From NCBI GenBank assembly GCA_023663465.1, contig JAMPHJ010000006.1, forward strand, positions 1 through 50,926: a stretch of DNA of 50,926 nucleotides. Direction: 5' to 3'. The DNA comes from Muribaculaceae bacterium (GTDB taxonomy: Bacteria > Bacillota > Clostridia > Lachnospirales > Lachnospiraceae). Position numbers and translations under genes: made by a program. Numbering within the stretch: the first letter of the stretch is position 1; each line of letters begins with the position of its first letter. The notes under the pieces were generated by a model that saw only the letters and a list, made by a program, of their open reading frames with translations, did not search any database and was not told the DNA's origin. Of this stretch, positions 32,685 to 47,451 are shown piece after piece.

Positions 32685-32714
32685 TTGACAATATATACTT
32701 TGAATATGTATAAT
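32685..32714 (+). promoter_or_regulatory. Promoter of the sortase operon
   Basis: TTGACA (32685-32690) and TATAAT (32709-32714) with an 18-bp spacer. The -10 overlaps the first possible upstream start codon of the ORF (TTG at 32714), which therefore cannot be the translation start. Confidence 0.8.
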
Positions 32715-32770
32715 TGGACTGGATAGGTATTCTGTATATTTATGCAGTGAAAGACCCTTGTGGGAATAAA

Positions 32771-33766
32771 ATGGAAAAGAATAGGGACAGCAAAAAAATG
32801 AATCAGAAAAAAGAAAAGTCAAAAATATGGCTTACTTTATTTTGTATATGTCTGGGCGTTGTGATTCTGGCGTCGGGAATCTTATGTATACAGTACCTGG
32901 ACAGCCGGGCGGCAAACAAGCAATTAAGCAGTTTACAGGAAGCTGCAAATGAACAGGCGGACGCATCGGTAGTATTGGATGAAAATGCAGACGGCAGCCG
33001 GGAAGCTGTAAATGGAAATGTGGGCGATGATCAGACAGACATAAATAGACTGACGGATAACCGTGCCGGGGAAACCGCAGGATATAGAGCGAAACAAGAC
33101 GATTCCGGGGAAACAGGGGAAAACCTGGAGCAGGGGAAAAATACGGATGCAGCAAACCTGACAGAGGTGCAGGGTATCAAAATACCGGAGAAAAATCTGG
33201 ACTGGGATAAGCTGCATGAAGAAAACGGTGATATTTACGCATGGATTTATGTGCCGGATACCACGGTGGATTATCCTGTGCTGCAACATCCGACAGATAA
33301 TAGTTATTATCTGAATCATAATATGAATGGAACGAAAGGATATCCGGGCTGTATTTATACAGAGAATTTTAACAGCAGGGATTTTTCAGACATCCATACG
33401 GTAATCTATGGTCACAACCTCAAAGATAAGAGTATGTTTTCTACGTTGCACAATTTTGAAGATGAGGAATTGTTTGGCGAAGACCACTATATTTTCCTTT
33501 ATACAGAAGAGAACGTATTCGTTTACCGGATATTTGCCGCTTATGAATTTAGTGCGATTCATCTGCTGGATAATTTTGATTATACCAATGAATATGTTTA
33601 TGAGGATTATCTGAAAAAAATATATCAGACGACAGATAGGGTAGCAAACGTAAGGACGGATATCCAGGTTACGGCAGCGGATAAGATTGTCACACTGTCC
33701 ACTTGTACAGAGGACCATGATTCGGAAAGGCGTTTTCTGGTAACAGGCGTGTTGGTAAATCCGTGA
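32771..33766 (+). CDS. srtB: Class B sortase
   Basis: Membrane transpeptidase that attaches secreted proteins to the wall or to pili. About 331 residues: N-terminal anchor (IWLTLFCICLGVVILASGIL, 19-38), an Asp/Glu-rich stalk, then the sortase barrel from about 140. Catalytic H215 (VIYGHNLKDKSMF), C312 (TLSTCTED) and the arginine of ERRFLVTG (R320 or R321). The YPVLQHPTDNSYYLNHN block is class B. Upstream in-frame codons overlap the promoter, so ATG 32771 is preferred, although its ribosome binding site is weak; ATG 32798 is an alternative. It is followed by the LCP gene and then by a protein with an SPRTG sorting signal, its likely substrate. Confidence 0.9.
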   Translation: MEKNRDSKKMNQKKEKSKIWLTLFCICLGVVILASGILCIQYLDSRAANKQLSSLQEAANEQADASVVLDENADGSREAVNGNVGDDQTDINRLTDNRAGETAGYRAKQDDSGETGENLEQGKNTDAANLTEVQGIKIPEKNLDWDKLHEENGDIYAWIYVPDTTVDYPVLQHPTDNSYYLNHNMNGTKGYPGCIYTENFNSRDFSDIHTVIYGHNLKDKSMFSTLHNFEDEELFGEDHYIFLYTEENVFVYRIFAAYEFSAIHLLDNFDYTNEYVYEDYLKKIYQTTDRVANVRTDIQVTAADKIVTLSTCTEDHDSERRFLVTGVLVNP

Positions 33767-33779
33767 GAGCAGGGAAACT

Positions 33780-34853
33780 ATGTTAGATAAAGAAACCATT
33801 GTGGAAAAAAAGAAATTTGGAATCGGCACGCTTACCGTGATTATCATTATCACGGTGATTTTGTCGGTTGCAGGCACCGTGACAGTGATGCGGATGGTGG
33901 GGAAGGCTTCTTTGTCCGTCAAGGTCACGAGCACGGAAATGGCTGAGCTTGGCGAGGAGTCTGCAGAGCCGGAAGAGAAGCAGATTCTCTATCAGGACGA
34001 TTATGCTTTCAATGAGGATTTGGTTACGATTCTGGTCATGGGCATTGACAAAGAGACCGTTACCGATGTCGGCGGGCAGAGCTGGGAAGCGGAGGATGGA
34101 TATGCGGGCGGACAGGCTGACGCTTTATTTTTGATGCTTATCAATCCGCACGATAAAAATGTCTATGTCATAGCGATTAATAGAAACGCTATGGCGCAGG
34201 TGGATGTTTTTGATGAAGCGGGCAATTATCAGGGAATTTTCACTAAGCAGATTGCGCTTCAGCATGGATACGGCGATGGCGGGGAAGAGAGCTGCCTCAG
34301 ACAGGTAAAAGCGGTATCCAGAATGTTCCATAATATTCCCATCAATGCATATGCAGCAATCAGTATGGACGCGATACCGGAGTTAAATGATTTGGTCGGC
34401 GGTATTACCGTAGAAGTATTGGACGATATTATTTATCCAGAATACGATATGGACCTTCATCAAGGGGATACGGTAACGTTACTAGGTGAAAAGGCGTATT
34501 GGTATGTTCGTCTTAGGAATGAAAATGTATTCAATTCCAACGAGCTTCGTTTACAGAGACAGAAACAGTATATGACGACATTTGCGGCAGAAGCTAAGAA
34601 TCAGTCTATGTCTGATATCCGTGTGGCAGTCAATCTTTATCAGACGGTACGCAAATATATGGTCACGGATATTGATTTGAACGAGTTTACCTACATGGTG
34701 ACAGAGTATATAAACTATGATTTCGATAGGGATAATATGTATTCTTTGCCCGGTGAAGCCGTACAGGGAAACAATTTTGAAGAATTTTATGTAGATGAAG
34801 ACGCATTGGAAGCGTTGATTCTGGAATTATTTTATGAGCCGGCAGTAAAGTAA
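33780..34853 (+). CDS. LytR-CpsA-Psr (LCP) family protein, divergent active-site loop
   Basis: LCP enzymes move lipid-linked glycopolymers onto peptidoglycan. 357 residues: anchor at about 15-37 (TLTVIIIITVILSVAGTVTV), then the LCP domain from about 80. The C-terminal block YWYVRLRNENVFNSNELRLQ and RQKQYM keeps the usual arginines. The two canonical signatures are altered: RSDT is replaced by GQADAL and IPRD by AINRNA. It may therefore use a different acceptor or be non-catalytic. It lies 13 bp after the sortase gene and just upstream of a polysaccharide locus, which suggests a role in anchoring surface polymer. Confidence 0.8.
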   Translation: MLDKETIVEKKKFGIGTLTVIIIITVILSVAGTVTVMRMVGKASLSVKVTSTEMAELGEESAEPEEKQILYQDDYAFNEDLVTILVMGIDKETVTDVGGQSWEAEDGYAGGQADALFLMLINPHDKNVYVIAINRNAMAQVDVFDEAGNYQGIFTKQIALQHGYGDGGEESCLRQVKAVSRMFHNIPINAYAAISMDAIPELNDLVGGITVEVLDDIIYPEYDMDLHQGDTVTLLGEKAYWYVRLRNENVFNSNELRLQRQKQYMTTFAAEAKNQSMSDIRVAVNLYQTVRKYMVTDIDLNEFTYMVTEYINYDFDRDNMYSLPGEAVQGNNFEEFYVDEDALEALILELFYEPAVK

Positions 34854-34939
34854 ATACTGCCGCGATTCGGTATCTTCCGGGGAAGTAAATCTTCGGTTTG
34901 ATATAGCCACATGAATATATTAGGAGAGGAGGAGTGACA

Positions 34940-35620
34940 ATGAAGAGAAAATTTTTAGCAGTGTTAACTGCGCTGACAGTTCTTACCATGAGCTCCCTGA
35001 CTGCATTTGCAGCAAGCCCGACGGTAGGTACGACAGAAGCTCCTGTCAAAACACAGAAAAGCTTAACGGTCGTAGGAGCAACGGCAAGCTCTTCCGATTA
35101 TCTGAAAAAAACATCGGCGTCAGCGGGATATAATGTATCCGAGGTATCCAGTACAACGATTCGGGCGGCGGCAGTGGCAGTCCAGAATGCAATTTTAAAT
35201 GATGTTGCATCTATTGCAGCTAGGCTTGGAAGTAGAACTCTTGCTAATGCAGCCGGAAATTCGTCAAGCCAGGTGACGGCATCCATTCTGACGGTTATTG
35301 AGGTCAAAGCGTTAGGCGCTACGAAAGACGCCAACGGAAATTATGTGGTAACATTAAACCTTCCCGATATTGCCGCAGGAGATGCGGTGGTAGTCCTGCA
35401 TTATACAGGCAGCGTATGGGAAACGATTGTTCCTACGGGTGTAGCAAACGGTTCTGTAACGTTTGCCAGCGCAAGCCTTTCTCCGATTGCGGTTGTAAAA
35501 CTTGATGTGACGAGTGTTTCCCGGTCCCCCAGGACTGGTTCCGAAATGCCTGTTGCAGCAGCGGTCCTGGTGATTGGCATCGCTGGTACAACAGTATGTG
35601 GAAAGAAGTATTTTGCATAA
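34940..35620 (+). CDS. Secreted protein with C-terminal SPRTG sorting signal
   Basis: 226 residues. A classic signal peptide (MKRKFLAVLTALTVLTMSS and cleavage near AFAAS), a Ser/Ala/Thr-rich mature region with a beta-rich segment at about 112-190, then a wall-sorting end: SPRTG at 196-200, a hydrophobic helix 203-219 and GKK at 221-223. Class B sortases of C. difficile are known to use (S/P)PxTG motifs, so the neighbouring sortase is the obvious partner. No catalytic motif is recognised; it may be a small surface or pilin-like protein. GGAGGAG lies 5 nt before the ATG. Confidence 0.75.
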   Translation: MKRKFLAVLTALTVLTMSSLTAFAASPTVGTTEAPVKTQKSLTVVGATASSSDYLKKTSASAGYNVSEVSSTTIRAAAVAVQNAILNDVASIAARLGSRTLANAAGNSSSQVTASILTVIEVKALGATKDANGNYVVTLNLPDIAAGDAVVVLHYTGSVWETIVPTGVANGSVTFASASLSPIAVVKLDVTSVSRSPRTGSEMPVAAAVLVIGIAGTTVCGKKYFA

Positions 35621-35789: not shown

Positions 35790-36932
35790 ATGAAGAAGGT
35801 TTTAATCATAACAACCATCAGTGGTTTCCTGCCGCAGTTTGAGATGAATCATGTAAAGTTGTTGCAGGAAGCAGGATGTGAAATTCATTATGCATCCAAC
35901 TTTAAGAATCCGGTTTATACTTTTGAGGAAGCCGATTTAAAAGCACAGGGAATCCGGCTGCATCAGATAGATATTGCCAAAAGCCCTTTTCAATTTAGGA
36001 CTAATTTCCGGGCAGTCAAGCAGTTATTTCATATTATTCTGGAAAATGATATTGAAATGATTCATTGTCATAATCCTATGGGAGGCGTGGCAGGGCGCAT
36101 AGCTGCGGGATTGTGTAGAAGACACCCCTATGTGATTTATACTGCGCACGGGTTCCATTTTTACCGGGGAGCGCCTAAGAAAAACTGGCTGCTGTATTAC
36201 CCTGTGGAATGGCTGCTTGCCCATGGGACAGATATCCTTGTGACCATCAATGGAGAAGATTATGAAAGAGCGAGACGGCTCCCGTTTCGGAAAAACGGGG
36301 CGGTTTTTCAGATACATAGCGTGGGAGTCGATAAGCATCGTTTTTTCCCTAAAAAAGAAATCAGTGAAAAGAAACGCAGGGAATTGCAGGTGCCGACAAA
36401 GGCGTTTCATATTGTGACGGCGGCGGAACTAAATGAGAATAAAAACCAGAAGGTTATCATCGACGCGATTCGTATGCTTCCCCAACAAGATATTTATTAT
36501 AGTATCTGCGGCAAGGGGGAAAAAGAAGCGTTTTTAAGAAAGCTGATCAAGGAAAAAGGATTGGAAAACAGAGTGAAGCTGCTAGGATTTCGGACGGATA
36601 TGGAAGAAATTCTACAGACTGCGGACTGTTTTGCCTTTCCATCCTACCGGGAAGGGCTGGGCGTAGCTGCCATAGAAGCACTTTTGTGCAGTGTAGTGCT
36701 TGTGGCTTCTGATAACCGGGGGACGAGAGAATATGCGGTACAAGGCAAAAACGCCATTGTATGCAGGGCGGATAATCCGGCGGAATTTGCGCAGGCGATT
36801 GATACCTTATATAAGAATCAGAAATTGCGGGAAGACATGGCAGGAAACTGTCGGGATTCCGCAAGAAAATTCACGGTTGAAGAAGTGGAAAAGATAATGA
36901 GAGAAGTATATGACAAGGCGCTCAATGCTTGA
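35790..36932 (+). CDS. Glycosyltransferase family 4 (GT-B)
   Basis: 380 residues with a retaining GT-B fold. N-terminal domain: MKKVLIITTISGFLPQFEMN, IHCHNPMGGVAGRIAAGL and YTAHGFHFYRGAP. C-terminal nucleotide-sugar site: VTAAELNENKNQKVIIDA, and FAFPSYREGLGVAAIEALL with the conserved EGLG glutamates. It is capsular-polysaccharide-type and cytosolic, probably one of the first sugar transferases of the locus. The donor sugar cannot be read from sequence. The start has no strong ribosome binding site (AAAGGA is 18 nt away). Directly after its double stop (TGA TAA) the same frame runs into an 18-bp repeat array. Confidence 0.88.
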   Translation: MKKVLIITTISGFLPQFEMNHVKLLQEAGCEIHYASNFKNPVYTFEEADLKAQGIRLHQIDIAKSPFQFRTNFRAVKQLFHIILENDIEMIHCHNPMGGVAGRIAAGLCRRHPYVIYTAHGFHFYRGAPKKNWLLYYPVEWLLAHGTDILVTINGEDYERARRLPFRKNGAVFQIHSVGVDKHRFFPKKEISEKKRRELQVPTKAFHIVTAAELNENKNQKVIIDAIRMLPQQDIYYSICGKGEKEAFLRKLIKEKGLENRVKLLGFRTDMEEILQTADCFAFPSYREGLGVAAIEALLCSVVLVASDNRGTREYAVQGKNAIVCRADNPAEFAQAIDTLYKNQKLREDMAGNCRDSARKFTVEEVEKIMREVYDKALNA

Positions 36933-37092: not shown

Positions 37093-38040
37093 ATGGAAGA
37101 GCCGCTTGTTTCTGTCATCATGGGTGTATTTAATCAATGGGATGAAAAAGTATTGCAGGAGTCGGTGGACTCTATCTTACATCAGACCTATCGCAAACTG
37201 GAATTTATCATCTGGGATGACGGCTCCTGCCCGGAGGCGGCAAGGCTGGTCCAGAAATTGAAGGGACTGGATGAGAGAATCCTTGTAGCCGGAAAAGAGG
37301 AAAACAGGGGACTGGCCTATTGTCTGAATGAGTGTATCCGCCTTGCGAGGGGCAAATATATCGCGCGTATGGATGCAGACGATATTTCCAAGCCTTTCCG
37401 CATTGAGAAGCAGGTAGCGTTTCTGGAAGCCCACCCGGAATACGGCTGGTGTGGAACCGGGGCGGAGCTATTTGATGAAAAAGGCGTGTGGGGAAGCAGA
37501 CCGATGCCGGAAATGCCACAGATGCGGGATTATTTTCGCTATTCCCCCTATATTCATCCTTCGGTAGTGTTCCGGGCAGAGCTTTTTGATGAGAATACAG
37601 GATATTTTGCATCGGAAGAAACGCTCCGCTGTGAGGATTATGAGATTTTCATGAATCTGACACAGCGCGGATTGCGGGGCTATAACCTGCAGGAAAACCT
37701 TTTCTGCTATCGTGAGACAAGGGATTCTTATAAGAAGCGGAAAGTAAAGTTTCGTGTCAACGAAGCCAGAATCCGGTATCGGAATTATAAGAAGATGGGA
37801 CTGCTGTTTCCTGTGGGATGGGTCTATGTGCTCCGTCCGCTTGCAGCATGTCTGATTCCCACGAGGGTACTGGAATTTGTGAAGCGTCATGAGGGGCGTC
37901 GCATGAAAAAAAGAGAAATTAGCGATTGCCTGACAGAAAATGCCACAAAAGAAATGCATTTTCAAGGCGTGGACTTTCAAGGCATGGATTTTCAAAGCAT
38001 AGAAATAATGCCAGTAAAAGCGGACAGGGCATATCGATGA
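37093..38040 (+). CDS. Glycosyltransferase family 2 (GT-A)
   Basis: 315 residues: PLVSVIMGVFNQWDEKVLQESVDSI begins the GT-A domain, then IIWDDGSCPEAARLVQKL, NRGLAYCLNECIRLARGKYIARMDADD (the DxD-type metal motif) and RCEDYEIFMNLTQRG. This is the WbbL/EpsE-like class that adds hexoses to a lipid-linked oligosaccharide. The last ~30 residues are a repeat tail (FQGVDFQGMDFQS) outside the family domain. GGAAGAGG lies just before the ATG; ATGA overlap couples it to the next gene. Confidence 0.9.
   Translation: MEEPLVSVIMGVFNQWDEKVLQESVDSILHQTYRKLEFIIWDDGSCPEAARLVQKLKGLDERILVAGKEENRGLAYCLNECIRLARGKYIARMDADDISKPFRIEKQVAFLEAHPEYGWCGTGAELFDEKGVWGSRPMPEMPQMRDYFRYSPYIHPSVVFRAELFDENTGYFASEETLRCEDYEIFMNLTQRGLRGYNLQENLFCYRETRDSYKKRKVKFRVNEARIRYRNYKKMGLLFPVGWVYVLRPLAACLIPTRVLEFVKRHEGRRMKKREISDCLTENATKEMHFQGVDFQGMDFQSIEIMPVKADRAYR
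37960..38004 (+). repeat. 15-bp tandem repeat in the GT2 C-terminus
   Basis: Three in-frame 15-bp units, TTTCAAGGCGTGGAC, TTTCAAGGCATGGAT and TTTCAAAGCATAGAA, encode FQG(V/M)D-type pentads. Confidence 0.8.
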
Positions 38041-39650
38041 GACGGGGTGAGAAAACCCCTAGGGGAAGCTGCAAGGGAAGTTATGGGGAAAAGAATTATA
38101 GGAAAAGCTATGGGGAAAAAAGTTATAGGGAAAAAGGCTATGGGAAAAACGATTGGGAAAGCTGTGGGGAATATCAGGAACGGCTGACGTATTATAGGAG
38201 TGTTTTGCAGGAAAAACCTGTATATAGGAAGGCAGTAGATAGCTGCATGGAAAACAAAGAGAAAGAATGCCAGGAAACAGTTATTCTTCCTATGGGTGTC
38301 GAAAATGCTGGAAATGGCATAAGGCATCAGCGTGTGCGGGAAGAAGTCTTCCTGCATGTGTGGCTGCCTGTTTTGACGGAATATGTGGAATGGGTGCTGG
38401 ATGAAGCTGTAAAAAGCGGGAAAGAAAGGCTCTATTTCCTCGCACGGGACGGATACATGATGTACCTTATGGCAAAAAAGATTGTGGAAGCAAGAGGGAT
38501 TGCCCTTGATGTCAGGTATCTGAAACTATCCAGATTCGCGATTCGCAGCGCAGAGTACTATTTTGTCGGGAAAGCGGCGTTAGATACCTTATGCACGGGC
38601 GGTATCGACATTAGTTTTGAGAAAATCATGAAGCGGGCAAACCTGACGAAAGAGGAAGCGCTTCATATTGCAAAGCTGGCAGGATACACGAAAAACTACA
38701 AGGCAGTACTAAATTATCGGCAGCTTTGCAGATTAAAGAAAGAACTAGCGCAGATAGAGCCACTATTTGTCTGTCTGCAAAAACATGCGAAAGACCATTA
38801 CCATACTGCCATAGCTTATTTAAAACAGGAAGGGCTGTTGGAGCAGATACCTTACGCCTTGGTGGATAGCGGATGGACGGGAAGTCTGCAGCTTAGCTTA
38901 CAACGGATATTAGAGCATGGGAGCAAGGGAAAAGTCAGATTAGAGGGATATTATTTCGGGCTTTATGATAGACCTGAGGGAACGGATAGCTATCAATACC
39001 GCGCGTTTTATTTTGATAAGAGAGAAGTCCGGCGGAAGGTTTCTTTTTCCAACTGCCTGTTTGAGACGGTCTTCTCGGCGCCGGAGGGAATGACCTGTGG
39101 GTATAGAATAAGCGGACAGGAACAGATGGATATGGTCTATGAAGCCATAGAGGATGGCAGGAATCCCAATGCAGAAGTACTGGAGCGTTTTGCCAGACTA
39201 TTGATGCAGTATGCATCTTACTATGTGAAAGTAAGAAATGTAAAAGTAAGAAATGTGAAAATAAGAAATGAAAAAATAAGAAATGTGAAAGATGCAGAAA
39301 AAATGTCAAACCGTCAACAAATAAATATTTTTATAGAAAAACTATTTAAGCCTATGATGGGCTATCCTACGCGGTGGGAAGCGGAGGCATTTGGTAGAAT
39401 GCGCTTCTGCGACGATGTACTAGAGCTGCAATTACAGCCCGTGGCGGTAAAATGGGATAAAGAGGAATTGTGTAAACAGCGTTTTTTTCAAAAACTTTTG
39501 ATAAAAGCAAACTTGAAAGCCGATGTCCTGCACGAAAGCGCATGGGCAGAGGGAAGCATTGTAAGGTCTGGAAAAAAGATAGAAAGTCTTCTGTGGCAGG
39601 AAAGACTCTATAAAAGTCTGATGTATCTAAGAAAGGCAGTTAACAGGTGA
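38037..39650 (+). CDS. Polysaccharide-locus protein resembling HAD-associated COG5610 family
   Basis: 537 residues. After a repeat-rich basic N-terminus (about 15-45) comes a globular region with ERLYFLARDGYMMYLMAKKI, then DVRYLKLSRFAIRSAEYYF, and PYALVDSGWTGSLQLSLQRIL in the middle. The FLARDGY plus YLxxSR combination recalls proteins annotated as predicted HAD-superfamily hydrolases in capsule loci. No N-terminal DxDxT motif of a true HAD phosphatase is visible. A pentad repeat (VKVRN) interrupts the C-terminal part at residue ~397-416. ATGA overlap with the GT2 gene fixes the start; an ORF extension upstream to 37926 would overlap GT2. Function unknown; a role in sugar-phosphate handling is inferred from context. 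Confidence 0.5.
   Translation: MRRGEKTPRGSCKGSYGEKNYRKSYGEKSYREKGYGKNDWESCGEYQERLTYYRSVLQEKPVYRKAVDSCMENKEKECQETVILPMGVENAGNGIRHQRVREEVFLHVWLPVLTEYVEWVLDEAVKSGKERLYFLARDGYMMYLMAKKIVEARGIALDVRYLKLSRFAIRSAEYYFVGKAALDTLCTGGIDISFEKIMKRANLTKEEALHIAKLAGYTKNYKAVLNYRQLCRLKKELAQIEPLFVCLQKHAKDHYHTAIAYLKQEGLLEQIPYALVDSGWTGSLQLSLQRILEHGSKGKVRLEGYYFGLYDRPEGTDSYQYRAFYFDKREVRRKVSFSNCLFETVFSAPEGMTCGYRISGQEQMDMVYEAIEDGRNPNAEVLERFARLLMQYASYYVKVRNVKVRNVKIRNEKIRNVKDAEKMSNRQQINIFIEKLFKPMMGYPTRWEAEAFGRMRFCDDVLELQLQPVAVKWDKEELCKQRFFQKLLIKANLKADVLHESAWAEGSIVRSGKKIESLLWQERLYKSLMYLRKAVNR
38079..38150 (+). repeat. 15-bp tandem repeats near the N-terminus of the HAD-associated-type protein
   Basis: Imperfect 15-bp units (one 12-bp) such as AGTTATGGGGAAAAG and AGTTATAGGGAAAAA encode SYGEK/SYREK/GYGKN pentads; all keep the frame. 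Confidence 0.8.
39225..39284 (+). repeat. 15-bp tandem repeats, four units, inside the HAD-associated-type gene
   Basis: Units at 39225, 39240, 39255 and 39270, consensus GTGAAARTAAGAAAT, encode VKVRN, VKVRN, VKIRN and EKIRN in frame. Confidence 0.88.
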
Positions 39651-40435
39651 AAACAAAAGACAGCGATTATAATAGCGATATCAGACAATATGCATTTGTC
39701 ATCCGGGAATTGACGTCAAGAGAAATCAAACGGAAATATGCTAGAAGCTCTTTGGGGATTTTATGGAGCGTTTTAAATCCGCTTCTGCATATGGTTGTCA
39801 TGTCATTGATTTTTTCTACGATGTTCAGACGTTCGATTGAGAAATTTCCGATTTATTATTTGACCGGACAGGTTTTCTGGACCCTGTTTAGTGGGGCGAC
39901 GGATTCTGCCATGACGGCACTTGTGGATAATAGGAGCCTGTTAGTCAAGGCGAAACTTCCGAAACAAACTTTTGTACTATCGAGGATTTATACCGCATTG
40001 GTGAATTTTGGATATACCTGTATCGCCTATGTACTGATGCTGGCGGTATTTCAAATCAAACCCAGTGTGACGATGCTGCTGTTTCCGATAGCCGTGCTCC
40101 CTATCATATCCATGTCGGTTGGAGTAGGTTACATTCTGTCGGTTATTTATGTTTTTTTTGCGGATGTAAAATATTTGTACTCCGTGTTTTTGACATTGTG
40201 GATGTATATGTGTGCACTCTTTTATCCGGTTACGAGTCTGCCGGAAGCAATGCAGACTTTTATAGGGTGCAATCCCATCTATGTAGCGATTGCCTTTGCA
40301 AGAGAATGTGTAATCTATGGAAGAGTCCCTGAACTCATGATGTGGATTAAGTTAGCGGCATGGAGCATCGGAAGTCTCGTGGTGGGACTGGAAGTTTTCA
40401 AACTGAAAGAAAACCAGGTCATGCAGAGAATTTAA
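39647..40435 (+). CDS. ABC-2 polysaccharide exporter permease (Wzm/TagG-like)
   Basis: 262 residues, six hydrophobic spans. Starts with the cytosolic amphipathic segment FVIRELTSREIKRKYARSSLGILWSVLNP, the hallmark of Wzm/TagG/RfbA permeases that carry undecaprenyl-linked polymers across the membrane. Later VFFADVKYLYSVFLTLWMY and CNPIYVAIAFARECVIYG are family blocks. GTG start overlapping the previous stop (GTGA). Its ATPase is the following gene. Confidence 0.92.
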   Translation: MKTKDSDYNSDIRQYAFVIRELTSREIKRKYARSSLGILWSVLNPLLHMVVMSLIFSTMFRRSIEKFPIYYLTGQVFWTLFSGATDSAMTALVDNRSLLVKAKLPKQTFVLSRIYTALVNFGYTCIAYVLMLAVFQIKPSVTMLLFPIAVLPIISMSVGVGYILSVIYVFFADVKYLYSVFLTLWMYMCALFYPVTSLPEAMQTFIGCNPIYVAIAFARECVIYGRVPELMMWIKLAAWSIGSLVVGLEVFKLKENQVMQRI

Positions 40436-40457
40436 AATACAGGTGAAGGAAAAATTT

Positions 40458-42440
40458 GTGGCGATGAAGGGAAAGCAGAAACTTACGCTGATTGCCCTGC
40501 TCTTTGCCGTAATCCTAGGATTTGTGGGAACCCCTCTAGAAGTCTATGCAGCGGAAGCAACCGTGACTTTTGGCTCTAACTGGTATGATAAAAAAAGCGG
40601 GGAAACCTTTCCGGTAGGCGTGTATCTAAAGGCAAAAGAGGCAATCGGTGATTACCATATAGAAATTCAATATGACACGCTGCGGTTGAGCTATGTAAAA
40701 GGCGCAGACGAGACGGACGAAGAAAACGGTATCCTGATTCTGGAAGGCAATCAGAATGCCAAAGAAATTAAGTTCTGGCTTCAATTTAAAGCCATCAGCG
40801 GCGGCGAAGCCTCGATTGAGGTGTCTTCCGCAGAGGTACTACTGCGAAACAGTGCGGAAAATGAAGCATTTACCATTGCTGCATATAGCAGTGCGCCGGT
40901 GCATATCCAGGGAGAGGATACGGCGGCGCAGATTGAGGAACGATTGGCACAGGAGGCGGAAGAGGCAGCAAGGGAAGAGGAGGAAGCAAGAAGGGCAGAA
41001 GGGGAAACAAGAAGAGCCGAAGAGGCTGCAGCAAGAGGAGCCGAAGAAGCGGCGGGAGCAGAAGGAACTGCGGACACCGAAGGGACAGTGGGCGCTGGGG
41101 AGTCGGCAAGCGTCGAAGAGACCGCGGGCGCTGAAGGAACCGATGAGGAAATGGCAAGAGGCGGCGAGACGGTTGGGAATGTGGGAGCGTCGCAAGAAGC
41201 AGGCGGAAGGCAGAATTTATCCAGTGAAACTGATGGAAGAAGGCAGAGGAAGACAATTTTTTTCAATGTTTATTTTGTCTTTGTGCTGGCAGTCATTTTC
41301 CTAATTATCATTGTAGAAGTCATCGTATGGAGTATTATTAAACGGGTGCGGACAAGGCATAAAAGAAAAAAACAAAAACAGGAGAAGAAACAGCAGAAGA
41401 AACAAAAGCGGCAAGAAAAGAAGAATCAGAAGAAACAAAAACGAGAAGAAAAGAAACAACAAAAAAAGAAACGAAACAGACGGAATAAACAGGATAGAAC
41501 ACAACAGCGTAAACAAAGTAACTATGCTTATCCTCAACAAAGCAACAGGAGTCATATGCTGGATTTCATAGACCTCGATATCGAAGGACAGACGGCGAAA
41601 CTGGAAGTACTAACTGTCAATGCGATATTAAATGAAATGAAAAAGCAGGATACGGCGGAAATTCCTGTGACAAGTGAGGATGAGTTGGAATGGCAGTTAG
41701 GAAGACCCGTTATCAAAGTTTCCGATGTGACGATGGAGTTTAAATTGTATTCGGTAAATCCGTCCGGCTTAAAGGAATATGCAGTACAACTTTTAAAAAG
41801 GGAAGTATCTTACCGCAGACTTTATGCCCTGTACCATGTGTCTTTCAATGTCTATAAGGGAGAAGTCATTGGCATTATCGGAACCAATGGTTCCGGCAAA
41901 TCTACACTGTTAAAAATTATATCTGGAGCGCTTAAACCTACGAGCGGTCATGTGGAAATCGTAGGACGTAGGAAAGTGCAGCTTCTGACAATCGGCACTG
42001 GCTTCGATGTGGAGCTGACCGCCAAAGAAAACGTTTTCCTAAACGGTTCCATTATCGGTTACAGCAAGAAATTCCTGGAAACCCATTATGATGAAATCGT
42101 GGAATTTGCAGAGCTTCAGGATTTTATGGATGAAAAAGTCAAAAACTTTTCAAGCGGCATGGTCAGCCGCTTGGGTTTTGCGATTGCAACAGCGGGGCAG
42201 GCGGCGGAAATCTTGATTCTGGATGAAATTTTAAGCGTCGGGGATGAATTTTTCCGGCAAAAGAGCCTAAAACGGATTAAAGAAATGATACATGGTGGTA
42301 GTACTGTGTTAATGGTCAGCCACAGTATGGGGACGATTATGGAGCATTGTTCGAGATGCGTCTGGATTGAGAAAGGCGAGCTGAGAATGGTTGGGGAGCC
42401 GAAGGTGGTTTGTGAGGAGTATCGGAGGATGAATGGGTAG
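40458..42440 (+). CDS. Signal peptide-cohesin-like domain-TM-ABC ATPase fusion (Wzt/TagH-like)
   Basis: About 660 residues in an order not expected for an exporter ATPase. Residues ~5-33 are a signal peptide (LIALLFAVILGFVGTPLEVYA); 34-150 a cohesin-like beta domain (GETFPVGVYLKAKEAIGDYH, IQYDTLRLSYVKG); 155-262 an Ala/Glu/Gly-rich linker; 266-294 a transmembrane helix; 295-350 a Lys/Gln-rich arm; ~417-660 an ATPase with Walker A GTNGSGKST (475-483), signature FSSGM (564-568), Walker B LILDE (D589, E590) and H-loop H622. The ATPase pairs with the permease just upstream, so it should energise polymer export while the cohesin-like domain faces outside. TagH also has an extracellular part, but C-terminal. 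GTG 40458 lies 7 nt after AAGGA; GTG 40443 and ATG 40464 are alternatives. Confidence 0.87.
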   Translation: MAMKGKQKLTLIALLFAVILGFVGTPLEVYAAEATVTFGSNWYDKKSGETFPVGVYLKAKEAIGDYHIEIQYDTLRLSYVKGADETDEENGILILEGNQNAKEIKFWLQFKAISGGEASIEVSSAEVLLRNSAENEAFTIAAYSSAPVHIQGEDTAAQIEERLAQEAEEAAREEEEARRAEGETRRAEEAAARGAEEAAGAEGTADTEGTVGAGESASVEETAGAEGTDEEMARGGETVGNVGASQEAGGRQNLSSETDGRRQRKTIFFNVYFVFVLAVIFLIIIVEVIVWSIIKRVRTRHKRKKQKQEKKQQKKQKRQEKKNQKKQKREEKKQQKKKRNRRNKQDRTQQRKQSNYAYPQQSNRSHMLDFIDLDIEGQTAKLEVLTVNAILNEMKKQDTAEIPVTSEDELEWQLGRPVIKVSDVTMEFKLYSVNPSGLKEYAVQLLKREVSYRRLYALYHVSFNVYKGEVIGIIGTNGSGKSTLLKIISGALKPTSGHVEIVGRRKVQLLTIGTGFDVELTAKENVFLNGSIIGYSKKFLETHYDEIVEFAELQDFMDEKVKNFSSGMVSRLGFAIATAGQAAEILILDEILSVGDEFFRQKSLKRIKEMIHGGSTVLMVSHSMGTIMEHCSRCVWIEKGELRMVGEPKVVCEEYRRMNG

Positions 42441-43884
42441 GGGAATGGTGGTACAAACTTTTATTTTTCCTAATCGTGTATGTGCTGAGAAAGAACTATA
42501 TTTCCGAACAAATGAAAAGGTATATTTTGAGAATGAACATATCCATATGTTTCCAGGTGGAAAACTGACTACGGATACCTATATGAATTTGTTTGATGCA
42601 GCTATTTGGCAGAAGTATACGGGGATGAAAAGCTGGAAGATCCTTTTTCATGCGTCTGGTTTTGGGAAAGTGAGGCTTAGGGCAGGGAATATTACAGTTG
42701 CAGAGCAAGATGTACATTGTATGGAGGCGGATGAAAAACAGATAGAATTTACATGTAATTTCAATAGCGCAGGGTTTTATTTAGATGTGGAAGCAAGAGA
42801 TAAGATGGAATTATCAGATATACAGATTATAACAAATGAGACAGAGAAAGAATTTACAAAAGTATGTATTGCACTAAATATCTGTACTTTTCATCGGCAG
42901 AAAGCTTTATATCATTCTTTGGGTGTAATCCAAAGCAGCAGATTTTTCCAGACAAATGATTCCTTATATGGAAAGTTACAGGTTTATGTGGTGGATAATG
43001 CTTCGGAAATCTCTATACCGAAAGAAGAATTTATTTCTGTTTATCATAATCCGAATACCGGGGGTTCAGGCGGATTTACAAGAGGACTTGTTGAGATTAG
43101 AAAAGAGCTGCCAGAAGCTGGAACTACGCATGTAATTTTTATGGACGATGACGTGGAATTTATTCCAGAGACGCTTTATAGACTATATGCGTTGTTATCA
43201 CTCATAAAAGAGGAATATAGGGATGAAGTAATTGCAGGGCGTATGTTTCGTATGGATGACAGGAAAGTACAGTATACGGCTGCTGAAATTTGGAATAGGG
43301 GAAATATCCGGCATCTTGGCTTTAATGCAGACATGACCCAATTAGATGCATTAAAAGAAGTAAATGATAATACGGGTGCAGAATATGGCGGCTGGTGGTT
43401 TTGCTGTTTCCCTATGAGCTTTGCAAAGAATAATAATCCTCTTCCATTTTTCCTGCACTGTGATGATGTGGAATATGGATTACGGCATGGGGGAACGCCG
43501 ATTATTTTAAATGGTATCCAGGTTTGGCACGAGACATATGAATATCGGCAGACGCCGGTTATGGCGTATTATGATTGTAGGAATAGTTTGGTGGTAAATT
43601 CCAAATATACTGACAAAAGTACAGTTGACATACAAATAAAACAGTGTATGTCAAGGATTAAGGAAGCGCATATCGAACAGAATTATATATTAGAATATTT
43701 TTTGATACAGGCATGCTGGGATTATCTTAAAGGTGAAAAATGGTTTATGCAAAAAGCTGATTCTGCTATACATATGTGTTTGATTAAAAAAGAGAAAGTA
43801 AACAGATATATTAACAATATAAGACGAAAAAGACTTGAAAGAATTATAGCATCGGATAAAAACAAAGAACTATGGGGAGCATGA
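42433..43884 (+). CDS. GlfT2-like galactofuranosyltransferase-type glycosyltransferase
   Basis: 483 residues: an N-terminal beta-rich region (to about 135), then a GT-A domain with VYHNPNTGGSGGFTRGLVEI (204-223), FMDDDVEFIPETLYRLY with the metal-binding MDDD at 237-240, GGWWFCCFPMSF (319-330), HCDDVEYGLRHGG (catalytic acid region) and VWHETYE (364-370). These blocks match mycobacterial GlfT2. The likely product is galactofuran in the surface polymer; the UDP-galactopyranose mutase gene needed to supply the donor is not in the window. It overlaps the ATPase gene by 8 bp. AT content rises from here on. Confidence 0.85.
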   Translation: MGRGMVVQTFIFPNRVCAEKELYFRTNEKVYFENEHIHMFPGGKLTTDTYMNLFDAAIWQKYTGMKSWKILFHASGFGKVRLRAGNITVAEQDVHCMEADEKQIEFTCNFNSAGFYLDVEARDKMELSDIQIITNETEKEFTKVCIALNICTFHRQKALYHSLGVIQSSRFFQTNDSLYGKLQVYVVDNASEISIPKEEFISVYHNPNTGGSGGFTRGLVEIRKELPEAGTTHVIFMDDDVEFIPETLYRLYALLSLIKEEYRDEVIAGRMFRMDDRKVQYTAAEIWNRGNIRHLGFNADMTQLDALKEVNDNTGAEYGGWWFCCFPMSFAKNNNPLPFFLHCDDVEYGLRHGGTPIILNGIQVWHETYEYRQTPVMAYYDCRNSLVVNSKYTDKSTVDIQIKQCMSRIKEAHIEQNYILEYFLIQACWDYLKGEKWFMQKADSAIHMCLIKKEKVNRYINNIRRKRLERIIASDKNKELWGA

Positions 43885-43885
43885 T

Positions 43886-45703
43886 ATGTATAAGTTACAA
43901 AATATACTGATAAATGGTTTTATTGAAATAGACGGTACCAGACAAATGTACTATAGGGGGTCTGATACTATTTATAGTGGACTTAATGAAGCGAGCATTT
44001 TATATAAAAATAATTGGTTTGAATTTTTTACATATTTTAATTCGTTATCGGTAGAAAAATGGAAGAAATATACATATGCAGAAAAATTTTATCTGGTATT
44101 GGAAGCAGAAGGAAAGTTTACAATAGATTTATTTGGTCATTATGGTAAAAAAACATCTGATATTAAGAAAGAATGGCTTGGAAGTTATGCATATGATCTG
44201 CAGGAAAGGACACAAATTATATTACCGTATCCCATTGGAATGCAGAGTACAGTGGTTGCTTTTCAAATAAATTCCAATAAGAAGACTTTTATCTATGATG
44301 CTTATTATGCTGCAGATATAAATAAAGATGAAATTGATAATCCTTATATAGCATTGGTAACGACTACCTTCAAAAAGGAGTCATATGTCAACCGAAATAT
44401 TGCTTTATTGAAAGAACAGATATTTTCTGATACCGAGTATGCGAATGCATTTTGTTGGAACATTATAGATAATGGACAAACGCTCACGGAGCAGACAAGT
44501 TATGAAGAAAGTATAAGGATTTTCCATAATAAGAATGTCGGAGGAGCAGGAGGATTTGCAAGGGGAATGATAGAATCTCTTAGGCAGCCCAAAATGCCTA
44601 CGCATATTCTTTTAATGGACGATGATGTAAATGTTTTTCCTGAAAGCTTTAAACGAATATACAAGTTGCTTAGTATTTTGAAACCGGAATATAGCGATTA
44701 TTTTGTAAGCGGAGCTATGCTTAATATGGATGTTGCCAATATTCAGCATGAGAATACAGGCATTTTAGTAGAAGCGGGATATTGTAAACCTATTAACTCT
44801 GGATTAGACATGAATCTGTGGGATAGTGTGGTTTGTAATGAAGTAATTAATGACGGAGTAAAGTATCAGTATGCAGCGTGGTGGTTTTGCTGTATTCCCA
44901 CCAGCATTGCCGGACTGGATAATCTTCCGGTTCCGGTATTTGTCAGGGAGGATGATGTGGAATATTCCATCAGGAACAAGGCGAGATTTATTACGATGAA
45001 TGGTATCTGTATCTGGCATGAAGGATTTGAGAATAAGTTTAGTGCAGCATTGGAGTTTTATCAGGTTAGACGAAATGAGTTGATTGCTCAGGCATTGAAT
45101 ACACATATAAAGGATGTGGACTTTATTGGACATATAAAACAGATTTTCTGGGAGGAAATATATAAATATAATTATAAGGGCGCTTCATTCTTACTTGATG
45201 CGGTGGAAGATTTCTTAAAAGGACCAGACTATATCATGTCGCTTGACGGCGAGCAATGTATAAAGGATAAAATGGCAAAAGATAATAAGTTGGCAGACAT
45301 TGAAGAAAAGGTAGAAAAATATATCAAAACAGAGACGCTATATCAATATGACATTATAGGAGGAGTACGTCTGTTTTTGTATAATCATACATGCAACGGG
45401 CAGAAAAGGATACTTGAAATTTTTTCGGGGAAAGGTACGGGGGTGATTCCGTATGGATGGGGATATGATAAAGGTAAATTAGCAGGGAATAAAATTATTT
45501 ACGCAGTCGATTTGCAGAATCAAAAATATGCTACGTTCATTCGTTCAAGGAAAAAGTTCAAAGAGCTGACCCAGCGTTATCAAAGGCTGATGCAGAGGTT
45601 TGAACAGGAAAAGGATGAAATAAGTTCGCAATATGCCGAGTACTCTGGAAAAATGACGAATGTAGCATTTTGGAATGAATATTTGAAAGTCAGAATGGGA
45701 TAA
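43886..45703 (+). CDS. Second GlfT2-like glycosyltransferase
   Basis: 605 residues. Same blocks as its neighbour: HNKNVGGAGGFARGMIE (214-230), LLMDDDVNVFPESF (MDDD 244-247), AAWWFCCIPTS (330-340), VREDDVEYSIRNKA (353-366) and IWHEGFENKF (376-385). A longer C-terminus contains GVIPYGWGYDKGKLAGNKI and a coiled-coil segment. With the first enzyme this looks like an initiator/polymerase pair or an alternating-linkage pair, as with GlfT1 and GlfT2, but division of labour is inferred. ATG 43886 is 6 nt after GGGGAG and immediately follows the previous stop. Confidence 0.85.
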   Translation: MYKLQNILINGFIEIDGTRQMYYRGSDTIYSGLNEASILYKNNWFEFFTYFNSLSVEKWKKYTYAEKFYLVLEAEGKFTIDLFGHYGKKTSDIKKEWLGSYAYDLQERTQIILPYPIGMQSTVVAFQINSNKKTFIYDAYYAADINKDEIDNPYIALVTTTFKKESYVNRNIALLKEQIFSDTEYANAFCWNIIDNGQTLTEQTSYEESIRIFHNKNVGGAGGFARGMIESLRQPKMPTHILLMDDDVNVFPESFKRIYKLLSILKPEYSDYFVSGAMLNMDVANIQHENTGILVEAGYCKPINSGLDMNLWDSVVCNEVINDGVKYQYAAWWFCCIPTSIAGLDNLPVPVFVREDDVEYSIRNKARFITMNGICIWHEGFENKFSAALEFYQVRRNELIAQALNTHIKDVDFIGHIKQIFWEEIYKYNYKGASFLLDAVEDFLKGPDYIMSLDGEQCIKDKMAKDNKLADIEEKVEKYIKTETLYQYDIIGGVRLFLYNHTCNGQKRILEIFSGKGTGVIPYGWGYDKGKLAGNKIIYAVDLQNQKYATFIRSRKKFKELTQRYQRLMQRFEQEKDEISSQYAEYSGKMTNVAFWNEYLKVRMG

Positions 45704-45723: not shown

Positions 45724-47451
45724 ATGCTAAATATTAATAAGGATAACAATTTTTTATTATTTCTGGAACATTTAAAATTGCTTAAAGAAAAATTAGTATT
45801 TATAGCGGCTAAGGATACGATTGGATTCAAAATCTCTGATGAGCAATATGAATTGTTGAATAGTCTTGGACTGAATAAACTGAATGAAAACAGAAGAGAG
45901 ATAGGTCATTGGAAAGGTTATATATCTGTTATTGACGATGGGAATGTCATTTACGAAGAGATTTCAAGCGTTCATGAAGACATGATATTCAATCAATCTT
46001 TATATGGGTATGATATATCCATATACAGTTCGCCATTATGTCAGGCGAATTGTTGTTCAATGATGATTAATGGAAAGGAATATGCGGTAAATCAAAGGGG
46101 ACTGAACTTTGCGGTGCTTGATAAAAATTCGGGAAGGATAGAGGAATCGGTCGCATTTGACACTCATGCAGACAATATTCCCTGCCATCGGGACGAAGAA
46201 AAAAGAAGCATACGGATTGATGCAAAGAAACGAAATAAAAACGAAATATTCCTGAATAACCTAAATGAGGTGCGGCGTAACTTAAATATAAAAACAATTT
46301 TAGGTAGTAGTTATGATGCGTTAATCACACAATATATAAGTCGAATAAAGATAAGATTTTTTTACTGGGGATCATATGTGTTATGGCTTGGACTGCGTAC
46401 AGTGGCAGAAGAATTTGCCAAAGATAGCAGGTTTGATGTGTTGGTAGTTATAAATAATATTTTTATGTATGAGAAAAAAGTGCAAGTGCTTCAAGAGAGT
46501 AATGTAAATTATATTATTGATTTCAAATATAAAATCAACGATGATCGCCCGGATATTGTAGTTTATAATATGCTAGGTTGGTATAGAGGAATCCAAAGTC
46601 AAAGTCAATGGAAACCTAAATTAAAGATACATATTTCGCCTGAAATAATAAATGGCATATTTTCCAGTAATAGACAGTCAGATTATTTAGATAACTTAGA
46701 TAAAAATGATGAGCAGAGGGATTTTTGTATTGTTGAAAAAAATATTTATAATGCATGTGTCCGGAAAGAGGGTAGTAATATACTGCCAATGGGAAATCCC
46801 AAAATAGACATCATCGTTCCGCAAAAAAACAATAAAAAAGAACTGCCTGAGGATTGGAAGAAGCTTAATGGGAAAAAAATTATATTATGGGCATTTGACC
46901 ATAATTGGAATACTGTAAGTTGTACATTTGATCTTTACATAAAGGCTATGTTTGGATTGTTTGCAAGGATAGATGAGGGACTTATTATCAGACCTCATGC
47001 AAATTATTTACAGGAATTGATAAAAAATCATTTGATGGAAGAAAATGATTTGAATTTGTTAAGGCTGTTCTGCAAAAAGTCAAAAAACATTGTCTGGGAT
47101 GAAACATTGGATTATAGTTACGCATACTCGATTGCGGATGCAGTTATAACAGATATAAATTGTGGGATTTCGATTTCGGCGCTCCCGTTGGATATACCGG
47201 TTGCAGTGTTGGAAAGATACGATGGAAATCATTGCGAACCGTTGTATCCGGAAGTATATCAGTCGTTGTACAAAATACGTTCTCTGGAAGATTTAGAAAA
47301 GTTTACAGATATGGTAGCGAAGGAAGAACATCCTATGAAACAACAACAAAATGACATCAGAGATAAATATATTGCGAATGTGGATGGAAAAAATGGTCAG
47401 CGCATAAAGGACTTTATTGTAAAAAGTTATTTTGATAAAATAGAAAGGTAA
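45724..47451 (+). CDS. CDP-glycerol glycerophosphotransferase-like protein
   Basis: 575 residues. The C-terminal half has the GT-B signature of the TagB/TagF group: ILWAFDHNWNT, GLIIRPHANYLQELI, VITDINCGISISALPLDIPVAVL (counterpart of the usual TDYSS motif) and a final REL-like helix. N-terminal ~190 residues are unrecognised. It may add glycerol-phosphate or another polyol-phosphate to the polymer. No tagD-type CDP-glycerol gene is adjacent, and the active-site motifs differ from TagF, so another donor is possible. GGGGG precedes the ATG. Confidence 0.65.
   Translation: MLNINKDNNFLLFLEHLKLLKEKLVFIAAKDTIGFKISDEQYELLNSLGLNKLNENRREIGHWKGYISVIDDGNVIYEEISSVHEDMIFNQSLYGYDISIYSSPLCQANCCSMMINGKEYAVNQRGLNFAVLDKNSGRIEESVAFDTHADNIPCHRDEEKRSIRIDAKKRNKNEIFLNNLNEVRRNLNIKTILGSSYDALITQYISRIKIRFFYWGSYVLWLGLRTVAEEFAKDSRFDVLVVINNIFMYEKKVQVLQESNVNYIIDFKYKINDDRPDIVVYNMLGWYRGIQSQSQWKPKLKIHISPEIINGIFSSNRQSDYLDNLDKNDEQRDFCIVEKNIYNACVRKEGSNILPMGNPKIDIIVPQKNNKKELPEDWKKLNGKKIILWAFDHNWNTVSCTFDLYIKAMFGLFARIDEGLIIRPHANYLQELIKNHLMEENDLNLLRLFCKKSKNIVWDETLDYSYAYSIADAVITDINCGISISALPLDIPVAVLERYDGNHCEPLYPEVYQSLYKIRSLEDLEKFTDMVAKEEHPMKQQQNDIRDKYIANVDGKNGQRIKDFIVKSYFDKIER

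Follow-up and report, generated by a model that had tools for sequence, protein, structure and literature searches.

The window (the whole stretch of 50,926 nucleotides that we analyzed, from contig JAMPHJ010000006.1 of a Lachnospiraceae genome) encodes an exporter ATPase with a cohesin-fold domain at its N-terminus. This anatomy is well supported by sequence, fold, and conservation. From the gene neighborhoods of related proteins, we infer that the partner of the cohesin-fold domain is a polymer ligase of the LytR-CpsA-Psr (LCP) family. The best explanation as a whole, which we consider somewhat probable, is a TagGH-like exporter with its domain order reversed, whose ectodomain docks LCP or attachment machinery.

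In Gram-positive bacteria, wall polymers that have been exported must reach the LCP ligase. An exporter tied to an extracellular module that is often encoded beside LCP elsewhere points to a connection between these two steps that can be tested. The protein also suggests that, in gut bacteria, an ABC motor can follow an N-terminus that is itself exported, as a mirror image of the arrangement in TagH.

A cohesin fold and an exporter ATPase in one protein

The fused gene is a single unbroken open reading frame of 665 codons (40443-42440 on the + strand). This confirms an earlier interpretation, made from the DNA alone (the sequence-only reading), that one uninterrupted frame encodes these domains in this order. 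There are three candidate starts in frame: GTG at 40443, GTG at 40458 (the start in the sequence-only reading), and ATG at 40464. Residue numbers count from GTG 40443. The parts of the gene are:

40443..42440, + strand: fused gene, 665 amino acids (signal peptide, cohesin fold, linker, membrane helix, basic arm, and Wzt/TagH-type ABC ATPase); relatives share this architecture
40443..40550, + strand: signal peptide, residues 1-36 (hydrophobic core, with a VYA-A site by reading the sequence)
40551..40916, + strand: beta-rich cohesin-fold ectodomain, residues 37-158 (AF2, Foldseek, VIA-align, dN/dS)
40917..41258, + strand: Ala/Glu-rich linker, residues 159-272 (fast-evolving)
41259..41348, + strand: lone membrane helix and its flanks, residues 273-302 (helix at about 277-300; Kyte-Doolittle score of 3.2 over 19 residues)
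41349..41702, + strand: Lys/Gln/Arg-rich arm with a FIDLD motif, residues 303-420, predicted from sequence to be cytosolic
41703..42437, + strand: ABC ATPase of the Wzt/TagH class, residues 421-665 (PF00005; Walker A at 41880-41906)

The ATPase domain has a complete set of motifs: Walker A (GTNGSGKST, 480-488), SSGM (570-573), ILILDE (590-595), and H627. In the alignment of ATPases, H627 is invariant, as is every position of Walker A except T481, which is nearly so. The protein as a whole matches PF00005 (E = 5e-21) and its best match in NCBIfam is TagH (E = 9e-54). The class of the ATPase (Wzt/TagH) is the one given in the sequence-only reading. The open reading frame ends with the ATPase, and no domain lies C-terminal of it.

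We examined the likely topology in 34 fused open reading frames (33 from named genomes, described below, and the window). All 34 have exactly one hydrophobic segment between the cohesin and the ATPase. Lysine and arginine outnumber aspartate and glutamate in the 20 residues past the helix in 30 of them; in the window's arm, the count is 11 to 1 in the first 20 residues past the scored helix segment. A segment like a signal peptide scores in 31/34, and by eye we recognized one in two more (L124 and L125). The remaining one (L099, from genome G406) has no signal peptide. These signs in the sequence agree with the idea of an external domain tethered to a cytosolic motor, and they suggest a type I topology, with the ectodomain outside and the ATPase inside.

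The fused gene lies in a probable wall-polymer locus

The fused gene begins 7 bases 3' of a permease gene, and it shares its last 8 bases with the glycosyltransferase gene that follows. The other genes of the locus are:

32714..33766, + strand: sortase (PF04203)
33780..34853, + strand: LCP (LytR-CpsA-Psr) polymer ligase (PF03816, E = 2.1e-19)
34934..35620, + strand: small secreted protein with a PRTG-helix end, by sequence (no match in Pfam; many named clusters encode a relative)
35790..36932, + strand: GT4 glycosyltransferase of the conserved cluster (PF00534)
37093..38040, + strand: GT2 glycosyltransferase of the conserved cluster (PF00535)
37926..39650, + strand: conserved cluster protein (no match in Pfam; a match of 99 residues to Bcs3; the start is uncertain and overlaps the GT2 gene)
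39647..40435, + strand: Wzm/TagG-type permease, the presumed partner of the ATPase (PF01061; NF050109 below cut-off)
42433..43884, + strand: GlfT2-like glycosyltransferase (PF00535; PF17994 below cut-off)
43886..45703, + strand: GlfT2-like protein that resembles the previous one (PF17994 below cut-off)
45724..47451, + strand: TagF/TagB-like glycerophosphotransferase, a homolog of CDP-glycerol glycerophosphotransferase (PF04464, E = 3.8e-7)

Because the cluster encodes a sortase, LCP, glycosyltransferases, a glycerophosphotransferase, and a protein with a short match to the capsule polymerase Bcs3, we consider it to be a wall-polymer locus. The small secreted protein is possibly a sortase substrate of this locus, judging by its C-terminal end. 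The permease's matches in PDB are chains of transport permeases, O-antigen exporters, and TarG.

The sequence-only reading had proposed a search for homologs with the same domain order next to Wzm-like permeases, and such homologs exist: a Wzm-type permease is the neighboring open reading frame of 33/34 fused genes, and the exception (L125) is cut at the end of the locus.

We also noticed that proteins ending in PKTG are encoded in two other loci (L078 and L086); the window's PRTG protein lies near the sortase gene.

The fusion is present in many genomes

Using the first 423 residues as the query, we found the full-length fusion in 7 of 77 genomes from the genus, including the window. Scanning named genomes, we identified 52 loci, of which 33 encode the cohesin and the ATPase in one open reading frame. 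(One of these, L104, has a cohesin on the permease as well.) In two of the 52, the cohesin is on the permease instead of the ATPase (L116, L129), and in two more, the cohesin and the ATPase are adjacent open reading frames (L121, L122). Four have an ATPase with just a membrane helix, by eye (L101, from the same genus, and L123, L126, and L128), and nine have no cohesin match (L130, L132, L134, L135, and L137-L141). In L119 and L131, the ATPase gene begins outside of the covered sequence.

The concern that the two halves might be separate genes, united here by a frameshift or an assembly join, is not borne out: most homologs are one gene, and L121 and L122 are the exceptions. L121 is a draft stretch in which two neighboring genes are also in pieces, and in L122, a single stop codon separates two open reading frames that are in the same frame. 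For six of the 33 fused loci (L097, L103, L110, L112, L117, and L124), the title of the record contains neither "MAG" nor "uncultured"; L124 is from a cultured bacterium, Pseudobutyrivibrio ruminis AD2017. Since the fusion is present in so many genomes, including these six, we rejected chance, an assembly join, or a frameshift as its origin.

A family survey of 397 genomes with the ATPase alignment found 27 matches at E ≤ 1e-100. Ten of these have the cohesin on the ATPase, one has it on the permease (G142), and 10 are plain. Another four have a membrane helix only, by eye (the helix-only ATPases of this survey include L148 and L157), and two have a C-terminal extension. Of the other 29 loci listed by the class survey, none has an ATPase with a cohesin match. 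In a tree of 106 ATPase domains, 38 of the 43 sequences with a cohesin fall within one group of 53.

Some ATPases (L134/L151 from G160, and L154 from G489) have C-terminal extensions that contain YTGL/W-YV-G repeats and in which, by eye, we saw no membrane helix.

The ectodomain has a cohesin fold and is conserved

The window protein matches the cohesin family PF00963 with E = 0.022, and its 15.4 bits are under the gathering cut-off of 24.1 bits. A search of the window's own genome with PF00963 found no match, so we relied on alignments and on fold comparison instead. Among the members of the ectodomain family, 31/41 match PF00963 at E ≤ 0.1 (the best has E = 1.2e-6). An AF2 model of the window's ectodomain has a pLDDT of 85.9, and its top structural matches are cohesins with both Foldseek and VIA-align, at 8-20% identity. 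The confident model argues against the concern that the fold prediction might lack an extracellular domain. Between the fold comparison and the weak but repeated matches to Pfam, the proposal of a cohesin-like domain is upheld at the level of the predicted fold.

The ectodomain is under purifying selection. Between the window and G079, the cohesin part has a dN/dS of 0.04, compared to 0.03 for the ATPase and 0.28 for the linker; between L023 and L002, the corresponding values are 0.04, 0.02, and 0.39. Of three more distant pairs, two yield a ratio for the cohesin part, namely 0.14 and 0.10, versus 0.04 and 0.06 for the ATPase. Because the values for the cohesin part of the distant pairs are above those of the ATPase, the ectodomain is well kept, yet less so than the motor.

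In another close pair (L024 and L026, from G067 and G070), the DNA for the signal peptide and the cohesin is identical (dN and dS are 0), which leaves no dN/dS ratio for the cohesin, and the ATPase part has a dS of 0.20. This pattern is possibly a sign of recent recombination.

We searched for dockerins in the window's own genome (86% complete) and found none. Of 16 genomes with an exporter fusion, the window's own among them, 15 have no dockerin match, including one that is 99% complete in just 2 contigs (G403); the single match is in G406. This fusion differs from both cellulosomal and non-cellulosomal cohesins in this respect, as well as in its low identity to them (8-20%) and in its attachment to an ABC motor. 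B316 is described, in a passage of PMC2914790, as being without scaffoldin/cohesin components.

Similarities to known exporters

Passages of PMC11466899 describe TagGH from Bacillus subtilis as a Type V exporter of wall polymers, in which a membrane helix fused to the ATPase continues into an extracellular domain; one section calls the ATPase subunit TagG. Besides the NCBIfam match described above, the window's ATPase resembles this system in that the best match of its subfamily's profile in PDB is a TagH (7dd0, E = 7e-63). In contrast to TagH, where the ATPase is followed by the helix and an extracellular C-terminal domain, the signal peptide and ectodomain come first here and the ATPase comes last. 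Also, the ectodomain is cohesin-like, while that of TagH is SH3b-like. Compared to TagH in the strict sense (NF010066), the window protein scores 182.6 bits, versus an equivalog cut-off of 320 bits. Its mode of action would resemble that of TagH, with the domains in the opposite order, but it is not TagH by the curated cut-off.

The permease and the ATPase are also of the same classes as those of the Wzm-Wzt exporters of O-antigen. Unlike Wzt proteins with a C-terminal carbohydrate-binding domain, the extra domain is N-terminal, between the signal peptide and the membrane helix. Another similar system is the mycobacterial-type galactan exporter Wzm/Wzt (RfbD/RfbE). The galactan_ABC matches in NCBIfam (E = 4.7e-20 for the permease and 2.3e-43 for the ATPase) are all below cut-off, and so are the PF17994 matches of the GlfT2-like proteins that are encoded alongside. 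We know of no ectodomain in the galactan exporter.

The sequence-only reading knew of no described family with this domain order, and our search of the open-licence literature found no description of one either.

Related modules on permeases and in stand-alone proteins

The same ectodomain is found on the permease instead of the ATPase in L116 and L077/L129, and on both subunits in L104. It is also common in stand-alone proteins, which are comprised of a signal peptide, the cohesin, a second domain that we call X, a membrane helix, and a tail. Domain X has about 145 amino acids; examples are:

L104:2048-2482: domain X
L116:6553-6978: domain X
L203:17798-18262: domain X

We found domain X in 136 of 299 genomes from the Lachnospiraceae family (E ≤ 1e-6). 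Of the best 30 X loci, 29 have a cohesin in the same open reading frame, and one of these (L218) is a permease fusion. The X domains of the exporter fusions (together with one stand-alone sequence, L079) align to those of the stand-alone proteins with an hhalign probability of 96.5% (E = 7e-10). An AF2 model of domain X has a pLDDT of 90.4 and is all beta, save for one short helix. Twelve members had no match in Pfam at E ≤ 0.01, and a comparison to folds in PDB gave no clear match. The predicted structure may represent an undescribed fold.

The arms of the fused proteins and the tails of the stand-alone proteins share a FIDLD-like motif. The pattern [FILVM][IVLFM]D[LFIM][DNE] occurs in 13/34 arms and 7/21 tails. 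In shuffled sequences, the means are 0.50 (arms) and 0.65 (tails), and the observed counts were never reached in 1000 shuffles; this comparison is uncorrected for relatedness.

In genomes that contain both an X gene and a Wzt-type ATPase, the two are within 30 kb of each other in 8/32 cases, versus 0.69 expected by random placement. In L248, a stand-alone cohesin gene precedes the genes for Wzm and the ATPase and is 217 bases from Wzm. From this gene order, a permease fusion would need just one join. Given the shared architecture and gene order, the fused form probably originated from the stand-alone protein: a cohesin(-X)-membrane-helix protein from the wall or capsule loci of Lachnospiraceae would have been joined to the exporter.

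In another locus (L209:5164-8920), the gene directly 5' of that for a stand-alone cohesin-membrane protein encodes a secreted protein. This protein has cadherin-like domains and a borderline match to dockerin (23.0 bits, versus a cut-off of 22.9).

LCP ligases are often encoded beside the module

LCP adjoins the X gene, on the same strand, in 20 of the best 30 X loci, which include the permease fusion L218; 7 of these LCP genes were among the sequences on which the LCP model was trained, and without them the count is 13/23. In the first group of stand-alone loci (L201-L208 and L248-L250), whose neighbors we picked by eye, 10/11 neighbors are LCP by PF03816, with E = 6e-33 or better; the neighbor in L207 is an epimerase-like protein instead. 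LCP is also within the covered stretch of 25 of the 33 fused loci from named genomes. The association is not universal. Among the stand-alone loci from the first cohesin survey, just 5/20 have LCP in the covered flank, and in one context group (G171, G195, G200, G205, G265, G284, and G364), none do.

As a control, we considered 43 Wzt loci without a cohesin; none of them (0/43) has LCP within 1.5 kb, which is as far as this comparison reaches. In the window, the LCP gene is 5.6 kb upstream of the fused gene, or beyond the reach of the control. The candidate targets for the ectodomain were the polymer, the wall, or another surface protein. Among these, gene neighborhoods point most to the LCP ligase.

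A proposed mechanism and its alternatives

We propose that the fused gene encodes the ATPase half of a TagGH- or Wzm-Wzt-type exporter, and that its substrate would be a lipid-linked wall polymer made by the neighboring glycosyltransferases. The signal peptide would export the N-terminus, so the cohesin-fold domain would lie outside of the membrane, where a flexible linker (about 110 residues) would hold it. A single helix would cross back through the membrane, and the basic arm would lead to the cytosolic ATPase. If there are two ATPases per exporter, as in TarGH, then two cohesin domains would sit at the exit of the permease. The most likely role of the ectodomain would be to dock extracellular attachment machinery, with the LCP ligase as the first candidate, and the enzyme responsible for linkage to the wall would thus receive polymer as it leaves the permease.

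A broader version of this proposal is plausible but, to us, a little short of probable: one family of wall-polymer exporters in Lachnospiraceae would carry a cohesin-fold docking module, covalently attached to the ATPase, the permease, or both; the stand-alone form would belong with LCP; polymer flipping and wall ligation would therefore be physically coupled in one machine; and the module would have moved between subunits during evolution.

The ectodomain might instead bind the exported polymer or another wall glycan, and act as a specificity check or a ratchet, as suggested for the SH3b-like ectodomain of TagH. The known partners of cohesins are proteins (dockerins), which does not favor this idea. 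There is a precedent in the regulatory domains of Wzt, which recognize modifications of the O-antigen, according to a passage of PMC11466899. Against glycan binding, the module is found in loci with different gene sets, including GlfT2/TagF-type, rml-like, and cps-like loci (we assigned the rml and cps labels by eye). Since the sugar genes vary from locus to locus while the module recurs, we favor a protein partner common to these loci over a site specific to one polymer, and we consider glycan binding to be rather unlikely.

We think it improbable that only the membrane helix and the arm matter, as an anchor for the ATPase, and that the ectodomain is a dispensable leftover. Helix-only ATPases do seem to exist (by eye, in L101, L123, L126, L128, L148, and L157). 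But the cohesin part is conserved (dN/dS of 0.04 in close pairs and 0.10-0.14 in distant pairs), the ectodomain is kept in 33/52 named loci, and some permeases carry it too, although a permease requires no additional anchor.

The long and fast-evolving linker, along with the existence of stand-alone versions, raises the issue of whether the linker is cleaved, so that the cohesin domain is released or separate and the ATPase works alone. The repeated covalent tethering to the ATPase or the permease suggests that the tether is useful, and we see little chance that cleavage is the explanation. Finally, the exporter might dock a secreted enzyme, as in the cellulosome, but this is very unlikely given that no dockerin was found in 15/16 genomes with an exporter fusion, including the window's own genome, even if the fold matches dockerin-binding cohesins and L209 has a neighbor with a borderline dockerin match.

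Permeases in this class can have other additions. In L106 (2941-5235), the permease and a homolog of the conserved cluster protein (at 37926 in the window) are in one frame of 765 codons. In L137, L138, L140, L141, L169, L179, L186, and L188, the Wzm-type permeases have a different N-terminal extension of about 190-245 amino acids, which reads by eye as a helix, an ectodomain, and another helix (for L141, we judged this by length only).
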